A DNA stretch of 64,000 nucleotides from Nostoc sp. CCCryo 231-06 (GTDB taxonomy: Bacteria; Cyanobacteriota; Cyanobacteriia; Cyanobacteriales; Nostocaceae), in assembly GCA_023522315.1 (NCBI GenBank), contig JAHCSU010000096.1, positions 1-64,000 of the forward strand, written 5' to 3'. The stretch's first letter is position 1; every line of letters begins with the position of its first letter. Positions 20-6,281 of the stretch are shown in pieces. The notes under the pieces are model-generated. The model had not been told where the DNA came from. It worked only from the letters and a program-made list of their open reading frames with translations, and did not search any database. Both the position numbers and the translations under genes were made by a program.

Positions 20-796
20 CTATCTCTTCATACTCTTTTTTTGGCTAAGGTATTGCGCTGTTAATAAATTTTGTTCAATATATGTGGCTTGAACAAAAGC
101 TTGAAAAATTCTTTCATGATGGGGATCGTTAACTGAAAGCTCTGGATGCCATTGCACACCAATTGCCCAAGGGTGATGTTCATGTTCCACTGCTTCAATT
201 ACCCCATCTTCTGGGGCATGGGCTACAACACGCCAACCATCTGGGACTTTGTGTACTGCTTGGTGATGCCAAGAAACTACCGATATGTGAGTATTCTGAA
301 CAAACTTAGCTAGACGGCTTTCTCCATTTATTTTGACTAAATGTTCTGTGGGTAAACGCTTTCCAGGTTCAGGATCTATCCGATGTAATACTGAATTACC
401 ATAAACCTCTGGGACGTGGGGAATGAGAGTACCGCCAGAAGCAACGATGAGAATTTGTAAACCTCGGCAGATACCTAACACAGGTAAATGATGTTGCATA
501 GCATATTTGGCTAATTGCAATTCAAAAGCATCGCGATCGCTATCTATAGAATAAATACTGGGGTGATCTAAACCTTCATACCACACAGGGTTAATGTCTC
601 CACCACCGGATATGATTAAACCATCCAAAGGCTCTAATAATATCGCCGGGTCAGTTTCACCGGGTGGTAATAATATAGGAGTACCACCTGCGGCGCGGAC
701 TGCATCTATATAAACACTTGGCAAAGAAAACGGTAATGCTTCTTGCCGACCGTAGGTTGTAATGCCAATCAACGCCTTTCGAGACCTTCTACTCAT
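20..796 (-). CDS. Class I glutamine amidotransferase-like hydrolase (peptidase C26, gamma-glutamyl-GABA hydrolase type)
   Basis: The 258-aa protein has the C26/PuuD-type layout: a substrate-loop motif ISGGGDINP near residues 62-70, the nucleophile elbow LGICRGLQ with Cys at about 110, and the catalytic His-Glu pair in WHPE at about 216-219. The family hydrolyses gamma-glutamyl amide bonds in the cytosol, for example gamma-glutamyl-GABA in polyamine breakdown. The actual substrate cannot be read from the sequence. The ATG overlaps the last 8 bases of the upstream STAND/WD40 gene on the same strand (ATGAGTAG), so the two genes are probably translationally coupled. No polyamine-pathway genes are nearby. 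The triad residues are intact, so activity is likely. Confidence 0.85.
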   Translation of the reverse strand: MSRRSRKALIGITTYGRQEALPFSLPSVYIDAVRAAGGTPILLPPGETDPAILLEPLDGLIISGGGDINPVWYEGLDHPSIYSIDSDRDAFELQLAKYAMQHHLPVLGICRGLQILIVASGGTLIPHVPEVYGNSVLHRIDPEPGKRLPTEHLVKINGESRLAKFVQNTHISVVSWHHQAVHKVPDGWRVVAHAPEDGVIEAVEHEHHPWAIGVQWHPELSVNDPHHERIFQAFVQATYIEQNLLTAQYLSQKKSMKR

Positions 797-3700
797 CGTT
801 TTTCTTTGCTCCTAGGGTTTTTAAAGTTTTAATTTGAGCTTCTGTGAGATTCACTGCACCTGTGATATCCATCCCTTCACAGAGTCTGGGAGACCTGAGT
901 GTTTTTTTCAACTCTCCTGTTTCTGTATCCCAAAGTATAATAGTGCCATCTTCACTACTACTAGCAAGAGTTTGACCATCAGCACTAAAGACTACAGACC
1001 AGATTCTTTCTTGATGTCCGGTCAAAGTTTGGTAGAGTTTAGCGGTTTTGATATCCCAAATTTCAATGATTGGGTTTCCCCCTGCACTTGCCACAAAACG
1101 ACCTTTAGGGCTAAAAGCCACAGTCCGCACCCAACCAGTTTCTCCTTTCAAGGTTTGGATACACTTACCTGTAGTTACATCCCAGAGCTTAATCGTGTGG
1201 TCTTCGCTACCACTCACAAGGGTATTACCATCTGGACTAAAACGTACAGACCGCACCCATCCATCATGACCAAAGAGAGTGTTAAGGCATTTACCTGTAT
1301 CTACATCCCACAATTTGATTGTGCAGTCTTCGCTACCACTAGCTAAGATGCTGCTATCTGGACTAAAAGTTACAGACCAGAGCCAGTTTTTATGATTCTC
1401 TTGAGTTTGGCGATATTCACCTGAGTGAATATTCCATATTCTTAATATTTTGTCATCGCCACCACTGGCTAAATAACGACCATCTGGACTAAAAGCCACA
1501 GTCAAAATGCGATCAAAATGGTCTACTAAAGTTTTGCGATGTTGACCAGTTTGAGTATCCCATAATCTGATAGTTTGGTCGTCACTACCACTGGCAATCA
1601 TACTACTGTCAGGACTCAAGGCAACTGCGCGTATTCTATTGGTATGCCCTACCAAAGATTTACTTTCACCTGTATCTAAGTTCCAGAGTTTAATAGTTTT
1701 ATCGTCATTGCCACTAATTAAGATGTTACTACTGGGATGAAAAACTAGAGACCAAGCCCAATCTGTGTAACCTTGAAGAGTTTTGAGACATTCACCTGTA
1801 TGAGTATCCCAAAATTTCACAGTTTTGTCATCGCTACTACTGATTAAAGTTTTACCTTCAGGATCGGTAAAGGTAACAGACCAAACTTTTTCTGTATGTT
1901 CTGATAAAGTCCGGTAGCGTTTGTTAGCATCAATATCCCACAAAATTACCTTATGGTCTTCACTGGCACTAGCCAAAATGCGAGAATTTGGTTCTGGGCT
2001 AAATGCTAGCGATCGCACTCTTTGCGTATGTCCTGGTAAAGTTTGGAGATACTTGCCGCTATGAATATCCCAGAGCCTAATGGTATGGTCATCACTACCA
2101 CTGGCTAAAATCTTACCATCAGAACTAAAGGCAACTGTACGTACCCGCGCTGTATGTTGTCCTTCCAGAGTTCTTATGTAATTTCCCGTGTGTGCATCCC
2201 ACAAAATTACTGTTCTGTCACTACTACCACTAGCTAAAATTTTGCCATCTGGACTAAAAGCAACTCCACGTACCCAATGAGTATGTTTTTCGAGAATTTT
2301 CCAGCATTCAGCAGTATGAACATTCCATAGTCTAACTGTTTTATCTTCGCTACTACTAGCTACTGTTTTTCCATCTGGGCTAAATGCTACTGACCAGACT
2401 CTTTCTTTATGTCCTTGTAACGATCTCAAAAATTGACCAGTTGTGGTATTCCATAATCTGACGGTTTTATCGTCACTACCACTTACTAAGATTTCTCCAT
2501 CAGGACTAAAAGCCACCGATCTAATCCAATTTGTATGCCCTTCTAAAGTTAAAAGTTGATGACCTTTAGCATCTCTGAGGCGAATTTCACTTTTGGTATC
2601 ACCCAAGGCAATCATCGATTTTTTAGAGTTATACGCCACTGCTAAAACAATCCCAAAGGACTCTGTAAACCGTGTTTTGTTTAAATCTGCATTAACAAAT
2701 TTTACATCACGTAAATCTGCTCCTCTTAAATATGCCTGCCATACCGTGAAATTGGATAAATCAAGCCCAGATAAATTGTAGTTATGATAGCGTAATAAAT
2801 CTAAAATATTACCCACAAGATATCCTTTGGGTAAATCCCTAATTTTTTGCTTTTGCTCCTCCAGGAATTTAACTAGTTTTGTATCTAACTCATTAAGATT
2901 TTTAGCAATTGGTTTAATAATTAATTGCATCTGGCTATTTCTTACATAGTCTTGAGCAGTAGCTTTGGCTAAGGCAAATCTATTAAAAAATTGCATCTGT
3001 CCAGAATTTAGCTCTTTACTTACCTGCCGAATCAGAATACCAGTCATATATTCCAGTACGACATTTTGCAGAGTAAATTTACCATCAACGGCTTCAATTA
3101 ATGAGAATCGTTTCAGGTTTTCTAAGGCATTAATTACATCAAAATATATCGGTTTTTCGGTAATATCCTCAAATAACTCCATAGCAGATACTGGCTCTCG
3201 ATTAATTGCCAACCAGTACATAATTTCTTGTTCTAGTTCTGTCAGATGGGTAAATTGCTGCTCTAATAAACTTTCTATTCCCACAAACGGTGTCAAGGTA
3301 ATTTCTTGAGATAAAAATTCCGAAACATTTCCGCTAAATAAATCTTGAATAAAAGTAGAGACTATTTTTAAGGCTAAAGGATTACCACTGTATAATCTTA
3401 CTAGTTTTTGTATTTCCTGGTCTGTACCAGTAAGCTTTTTAGCCTCCAAGATTTTCATTACTTCTAAATCTTTTAAACCTTGGAGTGGTAAATAACAAAT
3501 TAGCAAATTTTCACCTTCTTGCAGAGCAATTTTTTTCGGTTTTATCCGACTTGTAAATACTAAACAACTTTGGTGATGTAATTCTCCGATCCGCTGAATT
3601 AAAATACTATAGTCTTGATATTCATCACGGTATTGTTCTGCATGGGAGCCATCCGCCAGGATTGATTCAAAATTATCTAAAATTAATAAACAACGGGAAG

Positions 3701-4334
3701 ACCTCAAGTGTTCCAGCAGCCGGGTGATTTTTTCATGAATATTACATGTAGTATTAATTTCTTCTTGATTCGACAAAAATTTAATGATCCCATTCAGTAT
3801 TGTCTCTAACTTGGGAGCCTCCCGGAGACTACGCCAGATAATATAATCAAAATCTGACTTTAATTGTGCCGCTAATTTCACGGATAAAGCGGTTTTTCCG
3901 AGTCCACCCATTCCGAGCAACCCCACAATCCGACACCGTTCGTTGACAATCCATTGTCGGAGAGTAGCTAATTCCTCGGTACGTCCGTAAAAAGTGACAG
4001 TATCCGGTGCTTCTCCTAAATCTTGTTTACTGTTGGAGGAGCTTTTCTCAGCCACAGGAACTATCTGATGAGAGGTTCCGTTGATGAGTTCTGGTTTGTA
4101 TTTAGCAAATAATGTGACTAATTCGGATTTTTTAGTGACATCAAATGCTCTATATAGTCTTTCTAGGTACTTTCTGACTGTCGCTGGCTGAATAAGCAGA
4201 ACTTGAGCGATCGCTTCGTCTAACTCCCCAGCCAAAACTAAACGCAACACCTCTTGGCGACGTGGCGTTAGTTTATCGAAGGTTTCATTCAACTGTTGTT
4301 GATTCATATCGTTTGGCGGCTTTCCACCTAACAT
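789..4334 (-). CDS. STAND NTPase: LuxR-type HTH, NB-ARC, pentapeptide-like segment and 14 WD40 repeats
   Basis: The 1181-aa protein starts with a LuxR/GerE-like helix-turn-helix (LTPRRQEVLRLVLAG, residues 22-66). An NB-ARC ATPase follows, with Walker A GMGGLGKTA at 141-149 and Walker B LLILDNFE near 215. Then come a helical sensor region, a short pentapeptide-like stretch (LSGLDLSNF, LRGADLRDV) and about 14 WD40 repeats, most ending in (L/I)W(D/N), enough for two seven-bladed propellers. STAND proteins are ligand-triggered ATPase switches: the propellers sense, and here an N-terminal HTH would be the output. The stop codon lies inside the start of the downstream hydrolase gene. ATG 4334 is used; ATG 4307 is an alternative. 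What it senses or regulates is unknown. Confidence 0.9.
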   Translation of the reverse strand: MLGGKPPNDMNQQQLNETFDKLTPRRQEVLRLVLAGELDEAIAQVLLIQPATVRKYLERLYRAFDVTKKSELVTLFAKYKPELINGTSHQIVPVAEKSSSNSKQDLGEAPDTVTFYGRTEELATLRQWIVNERCRIVGLLGMGGLGKTALSVKLAAQLKSDFDYIIWRSLREAPKLETILNGIIKFLSNQEEINTTCNIHEKITRLLEHLRSSRCLLILDNFESILADGSHAEQYRDEYQDYSILIQRIGELHHQSCLVFTSRIKPKKIALQEGENLLICYLPLQGLKDLEVMKILEAKKLTGTDQEIQKLVRLYSGNPLALKIVSTFIQDLFSGNVSEFLSQEITLTPFVGIESLLEQQFTHLTELEQEIMYWLAINREPVSAMELFEDITEKPIYFDVINALENLKRFSLIEAVDGKFTLQNVVLEYMTGILIRQVSKELNSGQMQFFNRFALAKATAQDYVRNSQMQLIIKPIAKNLNELDTKLVKFLEEQKQKIRDLPKGYLVGNILDLLRYHNYNLSGLDLSNFTVWQAYLRGADLRDVKFVNADLNKTRFTESFGIVLAVAYNSKKSMIALGDTKSEIRLRDAKGHQLLTLEGHTNWIRSVAFSPDGEILVSGSDDKTVRLWNTTTGQFLRSLQGHKERVWSVAFSPDGKTVASSSEDKTVRLWNVHTAECWKILEKHTHWVRGVAFSPDGKILASGSSDRTVILWDAHTGNYIRTLEGQHTARVRTVAFSSDGKILASGSDDHTIRLWDIHSGKYLQTLPGHTQRVRSLAFSPEPNSRILASASEDHKVILWDIDANKRYRTLSEHTEKVWSVTFTDPEGKTLISSSDDKTVKFWDTHTGECLKTLQGYTDWAWSLVFHPSSNILISGNDDKTIKLWNLDTGESKSLVGHTNRIRAVALSPDSSMIASGSDDQTIRLWDTQTGQHRKTLVDHFDRILTVAFSPDGRYLASGGDDKILRIWNIHSGEYRQTQENHKNWLWSVTFSPDSSILASGSEDCTIKLWDVDTGKCLNTLFGHDGWVRSVRFSPDGNTLVSGSEDHTIKLWDVTTGKCIQTLKGETGWVRTVAFSPKGRFVASAGGNPIIEIWDIKTAKLYQTLTGHQERIWSVVFSADGQTLASSSEDGTIILWDTETGELKKTLRSPRLCEGMDITGAVNLTEAQIKTLKTLGAKKNDE

Positions 4335-4791
4335 CCGATTTAGTGACTAAGAATAGCTTACAATCTAAAAGCTTTTGTGACACTTGTCACTTGTACGGAA
4401 ATCTTGATTTTTTGAGATACTCAATTGATGGGGAATGTGGAATATAGTAACGTGCTGATTGCTAAGGAGCCTTGAGCCAAAAGGCTTTGAGCAATCTACA
4501 CTCTGCTGGCGTATTTCACTACAGCCATACAAATAAAATTTTTCGCTTAACTGCTTGACAGTAATCGGATAGCCATGAGATAGTTCTATACATGAGACAG
4601 TTGTCACATATTACGACACCTGGTTCCTGGAAAAACACAATTAAAAACTGCCCACTCAATCATGTAAGCAAATCCCCTGGTAGATTCCTGTTCACAAAGG
4701 TGACACCTTTCTTTTTAGCAATTGAACGGTTGACACATTTGTAATTTTTAACTGAGAGTCTAGCACTGGTCTAGCATAAGGTTTCGTAACT
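4335..4791. promoter_or_regulatory. Divergent intergenic region with repeated GTGACA/TGTCAC boxes
   Basis: No gene is visible in these 457 bases; the track ORFs at 4365-4607 and 4771-4956 have no family-like sequence. The region separates the STAND gene from the rightward small gene. It holds GTGACACTTGTCAC at 4377-4390, TTGTCAC at 4601-4607, the 15-base palindrome AAAGGTGACACCTTT at 4696-4710, and TTGACAC at 4730-4736. The shared GTGACA/TGTCAC core suggests a protein-binding site, possibly for the HTH of the neighbouring STAND protein; this is inference. No convincing -10/-35 pair can be assigned. Confidence 0.4.
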
Positions 4792-5082
4792 ATGCCCAGA
4801 GAAACTAGCGAAGCGAATGAAGTTGACAGAATTGTGACTCAGCTGCTGGTAATTCTTCTTACTTGTTGGCATGAGACTGGATTCGGTCACATAGAAGTTA
4901 AAAGCGAACGAATTAAGCGTGGTCAAATTGTGGTGACTATCATGGGTTCTACCCACTATCGATATGTCATCAATAACGAGGATTTACAAAATTGGTTGAT
5001 GGATGAGAAGAAATCGGATTACGCTACAAGTGAAGCGCAAATTCTAACACAATTGAATAAGTATCAGCAAACAACAGAATAA
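4792..5082 (+). CDS. Small hypothetical protein (96 aa)
   Basis: A 96-aa soluble protein with no signal peptide or membrane segment and an alternating hydrophobic/charged pattern (GHIEVKSERIKRGQIVVTIMGS). I do not recognise a family. The ATG has AAGG about 9 bases upstream and opens a well-behaved reading frame that ends before a strong terminator at 5205-5239, which supports a real gene. It is divergent from the STAND gene and may share its control region. Confidence 0.55.
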   Translation: MPRETSEANEVDRIVTQLLVILLTCWHETGFGHIEVKSERIKRGQIVVTIMGSTHYRYVINNEDLQNWLMDEKKSDYATSEAQILTQLNKYQQTTE

Positions 5083-5204: not shown

Positions 5205-5239
5205 AAGGCAGGAAAAGTTTATCTAACTTTTCCTGCCTT
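5205..5239 (+). terminator. Intrinsic terminator
   Basis: A 15-bp inverted repeat (AAGGCAGGAAAAGTT / AACTTTTCCTGCCTT) with a 5-base loop, followed by ATATTTT. It lies downstream of the 4792-5082 gene and just before the next gene, and probably ends transcription of the first. Confidence 0.75.
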
Positions 5240-5817: not shown

Positions 5818-5966
5818 GAGGCCAAAACTATCTTAGTTTGATTGGCATTACTATGAACTAGAAGCAGAAGTATTGAATCTTAAGATTTTAAGGTCGTAGC
5901 CAAGTTATGTATTGGCAGATGCTGAATATTGAGGGTGCGGTTGATGAAACCAAACGGATCAGAAGT

Positions 5967-6281
5967 ATGAAATTTAAATCCTCTGCACAATCCATGAATA
6001 ACAAACCAACTCCTAGTGATCATTCCACAATCGAACTATCCATTACCCAAGAACGCTTGCGCCAAGCACGTTACAGTTTTAACCTGTCCTTGATTGCCAC
6101 CACAGTATCTTTCTTTATTGGCTTTGTAGGCGCTGGGCTAATTTTGTCAAATAAAATTCCAGAAGGAACTGTTGCTGCTGCTGGAGGTTTGGTTTCAAGT
6201 GTACGTTGCATTCAACTTGCTAAGGACGCAAACGATAGACTTGACAAGATTTTAGCAGAAATAAAGAACGAAAAAAATTAA
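5967..6281 (+). CDS. Cyanobacterial TRADD-N-associated 2-TM domain protein
   Basis: The core ITQERLRQARYSFNLSLIATTVSFFIGFVGAGLIL...VAAAGGLVSSVRCIQLAKDANDRLDKI matches my memory of the cyanobacterial TRADD-N-associated 2TM domain (a helix, two membrane helices, then a conserved polar helix). The family is usually linked to STAND/death-like conflict and signalling systems and is thought to act at the membrane, possibly as a pore or anchor. Here it stands alone without the TRADD-N domain. The track start 5907 adds an atypical leader; ATG 5967 (104 aa) or 5994 is more likely. A STAND gene lies 1.6 kb away on the other strand. Family assignment is moderately secure; function is inference. Confidence 0.7.
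   Translation: MKFKSSAQSMNNKPTPSDHSTIELSITQERLRQARYSFNLSLIATTVSFFIGFVGAGLILSNKIPEGTVAAAGGLVSSVRCIQLAKDANDRLDKILAEIKNEKN

Follow-up and report, generated by a model that had tools for sequence, protein, structure and literature searches.

The window analysed here is a stretch of 64,000 nucleotides from the draft genome of Nostoc sp. CCCryo 231-06 (contig JAHCSU010000096.1; G000:C717:1-64000), and its start coincides with the end of the contig. Two genes lie near this end on the reverse strand. The upstream gene (789-4334) encodes a STAND regulator of 1181 amino acids, and the downstream gene (20-796) encodes a Peptidase C26, or class I amidotransferase-like, hydrolase of 258 amino acids; the sequence 3' of the hydrolase gene is outside the view. 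The two genes share eight bases, ATGAGTAG (789-796, reverse strand), which contain the start of the hydrolase gene and the TAG stop codon of the STAND gene. A first-pass annotation of this DNA had described such an overlap of a helix-turn-helix (HTH)-NB-ARC-WD40 gene and a C26 hydrolase gene on one strand, and the open reading frames, called mechanically, and the domain profiles confirm it.

The STAND protein carries a DNA-binding HTH and a P-loop STAND/NB-ARC domain on one chain, which are both defining features of a STAND transcription regulator. The domain profile search revealed an N-terminal GerE (LuxR-type) HTH at residues 21-75 (about 4110-4274; E 1.7e-9), an NB-ARC domain from about residue 111 (E 2.6e-13) with the Walker A motif GMGGLGKT, and a short pentapeptide stretch at residues 520-557 (E 1.5e-6). 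In the WD40 part, 13 blades were recognised by a simple pattern at about residues 571-1150. This part is conserved as well as or better than the NB-ARC domain, and its blades correspond one to one in the L101 and L114 orthologs; in other orthologs, the blade-splitting pattern overlooked blades. Given this conservation and the stability of the blades, the protein does not resemble a rapidly varying immune receptor. The ratio of nonsynonymous to synonymous substitution rates (dN/dS) of the STAND gene is 0.13-0.18 in close pairs, indicating purifying selection. In the ortholog of the G363 genome (L171 7559-9528; L170), the GerE domain is replaced by another N-terminal sequence of HTH-like appearance, for which no Pfam or NCBIfam match was found.

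Using the HTH and NB-ARC part as a query, orthologs of the STAND protein were detected in 23 of the 218 Nostocaceae genomes, counted as one genome per species, at an identity of at least 58%. The next paralogs have an identity of about 51% or less, and NB-ARC paralogs are present in nearly every Nostocaceae genome. The culturable strains Fischerella muscicola PCC 7414 and F. thermalis PCC 7521 are among the carriers of the locus. The hydrolase gene adjoins the STAND gene downstream in 22 of the 23 ortholog-bearing genomes, and 21 of these 22 pairs overlap by exactly eight bases, in the form of ATGAGTAG, ATGAGTAA or ATGGCTAA; the sole exception is L133, in which the genes are separated by a gap. 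For comparison, 20 paralogous STAND genes were retrieved, and none of them overlaps a downstream gene. The adjacency and the overlap are not due to chance. The overlap is weak evidence by itself, since unpaired hydrolase genes also start with ATGAGTAG, which is plain Met-Ser-Arg/Ser coding. A Shine-Dalgarno-like sequence, AGGAG (809-813, reverse strand), is located within the end of the STAND coding sequence, 12 nucleotides before the ATG of the hydrolase gene. Its GGA codon is retained in 20 of 21 loci, the exception being again L133, the pair without overlap; since the same uniformity is seen in five of the 38 invariant Gly columns, this conservation is suggestive and is not decisive proof of selection for a Shine-Dalgarno sequence.

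A comparison of the STAND promoters indicated a candidate operator, the dyad GTGACA-N2-TGTCAC, located at 4377-4390 in the window; the 7.08-Mb genome contains no second exact copy. All 12 specified bases of the dyad are invariant in 20 aligned STAND promoters, while the flanks vary. Beyond these promoters, L155 has an exact copy and L134 a version without the spacer, so that the dyad is found in all 22 promoters of GerE-bearing STAND genes, 21 of them exact. No hydrolase locus without STAND has it, and it is missing from the whole G363 genome, in which the GerE domain is replaced. An exact site at STAND is present in 16 genomes, 12 of which have no other exact copy; second exact copies were found in G210, G213 and G214, and G255 has one more. 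As about one chance copy per genome is expected, it is the position of the dyad and not its number that is telling. A third half-site, GTCAC (4343-4347, reverse strand), lies on the STAND side, 29 bases from the dyad; of the 20 aligned promoters, 19 have a recognisable half-site of this kind, at a distance of 25-31 bases. The whole pattern agrees with a putative autoregulation through the GerE domain.

The second dyads of G210, G213 and G214 were rejected as operators, being located within the gene of a TRADD-associated membrane protein, CyanoTRADDas_TM. Perfect copies inside this coding region can be noted in L107, at -5090 relative to the hydrolase start, and also in L105, L108 and L111; when checked in L107, the copy was accounted for by the codons of N-V-T-A-V-T (Val-Thr-Ala-Val-Thr). 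A near-dyad with one mismatch, GAGACAGTTGTCAC, occurs in the window at 4594-4607, about 185 bases upstream of a gene for a protein of 96 amino acids; it is shared with L101 and is not found in L100 or L102.

In relatives, the locus continues beyond the point where the window's contig ends. Of the 20 paired loci whose sequence extends far enough, 19 have a convergent gene of about 240 amino acids, designated here as HDO-like, downstream of the hydrolase gene. It is present in 21 of the 218 Nostocaceae genomes, all of which have the STAND ortholog, and in none of the 195 genomes without STAND (Fisher p 3e-27, a value overstated by shared ancestry). No match was found on plasmids, nor in 390 sampled cyanobacterial genomes of the class, a sample that contains no known carrier and therefore has no positive control. 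The strict partner of the STAND gene is the HDO-like gene and not the hydrolase gene. Its dN/dS is 0.12-0.35 in close pairs.

Pfam gave no match for the HDO-like protein, and NCBIfam gave none that was significant. The structure modelled using AlphaFold2 (pLDDT, the per-residue model confidence, 85) gave as the best Foldseek matches CADD (1e-4, TM-score 0.65/0.74), HamA and PqqC, with BesC ranked lower, all of which have heme-oxygenase-like folds; weak matches to CADD and PqqC were also obtained with a sequence profile (E about 0.3). A heme-oxygenase-like (CADD/BesC-like) fold is thus predicted for this protein. Its ligand positions were placed by sequence alignment on the CADD ligand numbering. 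The candidate ligand residues E153, E189, H192 and D85-87/H95-96 are invariant, the usual HDO ligand set being three His and three carboxylates (PMC13108848). The HDO-like protein resembles the HDO superfamily (CADD, HamA, the PqqC-like fold and BesC; PMC13108848) in its predicted fold and its conserved His and acidic residues. It differs in lacking a significant match in Pfam or NCBIfam, in the variability of one His ligand position and in its occurrence only at the STAND locus.

The hydrolase is the most loosely attached part of the locus. It belongs to Peptidase_C26 (PF07722; E 1.1e-56), and its catalytic Cys and HPE (His-Glu) motifs are intact in the window and in all 22 paired copies; its dN/dS is 0.05-0.41 in close pairs. 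The first-pass annotation had proposed that it could be the effector or the regulated partner of the STAND protein. An effector role does not agree with its distribution: it is present in 56 of the 218 Nostocaceae genomes, 34 of them without a STAND ortholog, and in G363, only a remnant matching residues 210-238 lies between the STAND and HDO-like genes, both of which are retained. In two cyanobacteria outside the Nostocaceae (L010 and L030), the gene immediately before that of the hydrolase encodes a type III glutamine synthetase, and the two are candidates for a gamma-glutamylation/hydrolysis pair. Four Nostoc loci in which the hydrolase is unpaired (L122, L124, L131 and L146) have the gene of a GCS2-family carboxylate-amine ligase at a short distance upstream of it. 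Such neighbours fit ordinary gamma-glutamyl metabolism. Taken together with the genomes lacking STAND and with the erosion in G363, they make the hydrolase separable from the STAND gene, and it is probably a metabolic enzyme. It shares the family, fold and catalytic motifs of the PuuD-type gamma-glutamyl amide hydrolases; however, it scores 102 bits against the NCBIfam PuuD equivalog cut-off of 266 bits, and no putrescine genes were seen beside it here. The best label is that of a C26-family hydrolase, probably of a gamma-glutamyl amide.

The pairwise distances of the STAND, hydrolase and HDO-like proteins correlate with each other (Spearman 0.88-0.91, 18 loci), and the three genes are inherited together. 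Paired loci are distributed over deep branches of the hydrolase tree, and nested among the paired rows are loci with eroded STAND copies (L109; L112 and L113), of which only about the last 40-60 codons are left, and an unpaired clade of 19 rows. Because of this nesting, the simplest reading of the tree is that the pairing with STAND was apparently gained once and lost several times. Some loci preserve an older arrangement, MiaB-STAND-hydrolase-(HDO-like, convergent)-D-Ala-D-Ala ligase (Ddl). The flanking genes have changed in Nostoc and related genera, where the STAND, hydrolase and HDO-like genes are still together. The hydrolase gene also adjoins the Ddl gene in the genus g102 (L142-L145); in L143-L145, it lies downstream of MiaB with another small upstream gene and no STAND, which is either the ancestral state or a clean loss. 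In G255 (L172, L140), several unrelated genes, including one for an AAA-like ATPase, are located between the hydrolase gene and the Ddl block.

These observations can be brought together in a model in which a small enzyme locus of the Nostocaceae is under the control of the STAND protein, acting as a self-regulated transcription switch; we give this reading an even chance. A cellular ligand would most likely be bound by the WD40 propellers, upon which the protein would change its state or assemble with ATP, as the behaviour of its family suggests. The GerE domain would then bind the dyad and the third half-site in the promoter of its own gene, and this binding would control a cotranscribed STAND-hydrolase operon and perhaps the divergent gene of 96 amino acids too. 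Translation of the hydrolase reading frame would be coupled to that of STAND through the overlapping start, and in relatives the convergent HDO-like gene, of predicted CADD/BesC fold, would complete the locus. The predicted action of the hydrolase is the cleavage of a gamma-glutamyl amide, and that of the HDO-like protein is the oxidation of a small amine or acid; that the two share a pathway is a guess. In a more specific version, which is rather doubtful, a metabolite-sensing STAND switch with a private operator would govern a lineage-specific pathway whose enzymes are a gamma-glutamyl hydrolase and an oxidase belonging to a new HDO family.

Several observations weigh against the self-regulated switch. 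The shared ancestry of the counted genomes means that their independence is overstated. The HDO-like gene is absent from the window's own assembly, probably due to the contig ending 19 bases after the hydrolase gene, and G255 retains the STAND gene and the dyad without an HDO-like gene. The alignment position of one canonical CADD His ligand varies among the HDO-like proteins. The 160 bases upstream of the HDO-like gene contain no dyad, nor is there one within one mismatch elsewhere in the loci where this gene could be served; with no suitably placed dyad, the evidence for common control does not extend to it. Finally, the dyad also fits the core of sites of the cAMP receptor protein (CRP) type, GTGA-N6-TCAC. 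This identity with the CRP core is what speaks for a CRP-type or other regulator controlling the STAND gene, with no binding by STAND itself. We regard this explanation as unlikely: none of the 20 aligned promoters deviates in the inner CA..TG bases, most promoters lack the T before GTGA, the spacing is different in L134, there is usually one exact copy per genome, and in G363 the dyad was lost along with the GerE domain.

It is similarly improbable that the STAND protein regulates some other process and that the hydrolase and HDO-like genes are its neighbours through inherited synteny, with no functional connection. The separability of the hydrolase and the wider MiaB-STAND-hydrolase-HDO-Ddl block kept in several loci speak for this reading; however, the trio stayed intact in Nostoc and related genera when its outer neighbours changed, and every genome without STAND also lacks the HDO-like gene. 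Least probable of all is a module for conflict or immunity, with STAND sensing an invader and the HDO-like protein, the 96-amino-acid protein or the hydrolase acting as the effector. STAND proteins and WD40 sensors are characteristic of systems of this kind (PMC7159879), the distribution of the locus is patchy, with several losses, and one genome, G363, has an exchanged N-terminal domain. Like the STAND/TRADD-N conflict systems of multicellular bacteria (PMC7159879, PMC8195603), the window protein has a STAND architecture and occurs in filamentous cyanobacteria. Unlike them, it bears a DNA-binding GerE domain at the N-terminus in place of an enzymatic effector domain and a stable, conserved WD40 part in place of a rapidly varying sensor, and no TRADD-associated transmembrane gene is conserved at the locus. 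The private operator in its promoter, the partners that look like metabolic enzymes and the protein distances, which agree with vertical inheritance plus losses, also speak against a conflict role. The locus looks like a small, regulated set of enzyme genes and not like a weapon or a defence system.

As in the MalT-type STAND regulators with a LuxR-type HTH, an NTPase switch is combined with a DNA-binding HTH, and action at specific promoter sites is to be expected. MalT carries its HTH at the C-terminus, whereas the window protein has an N-terminal GerE domain, a WD40 sensor and a dedicated palindrome in its own promoter. In its broad class, it belongs with the cyanobacterial proteins covered by a survey of prokaryotic WD40 proteins (PMC5587647). 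It is distinguished from the examined STAND paralogs by the overlap of its gene with the downstream gene, its fixed partners and its own operator.

The first-pass annotation had suggested a small undescribed signalling module at this locus. The conservation and co-inheritance bear this out, and no description of the module was found in the open-licence literature searched; the effector role of the hydrolase, the membership of the TRADD-associated gene and the conflict function were not supported. Filamentous cyanobacteria have many NB-ARC/WD40 STAND genes per genome, for which no defined target or function was found in the same literature. The window STAND offers constant partners, one candidate operator of known sequence and natural experiments in the form of a lost STAND, a lost hydrolase and an exchanged N-terminus, and through this locus the role of a cyanobacterial WD40 STAND protein becomes directly testable. 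The modelled structure further hints at a family of HDO-fold proteins that has no name yet.

The orphan gene of 96 amino acids (4792-5082, forward strand) is divergent from the STAND gene and shares its intergenic region. Genome searches detected it in 13 genomes, all of which have STAND and carry it at the STAND locus; a further weak match in G274 (32% identity) lies elsewhere in the genome. No family was found for this protein, and its predicted fold was of low confidence (pLDDT 54) and was not used. The CyanoTRADDas_TM gene (5907-6281, forward strand) is indeed 1.6 kb from the STAND gene, on the opposite strand, as had been annotated. We place it outside the unit and reject it as a component of the locus, as such genes are common elsewhere, in 112 of 193 Nostocaceae genomes, and occur at only eight STAND loci. 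Between the 96-amino-acid gene and the next small open reading frame, a strong terminator-like hairpin of 15 pairs is located at 5205-5239.

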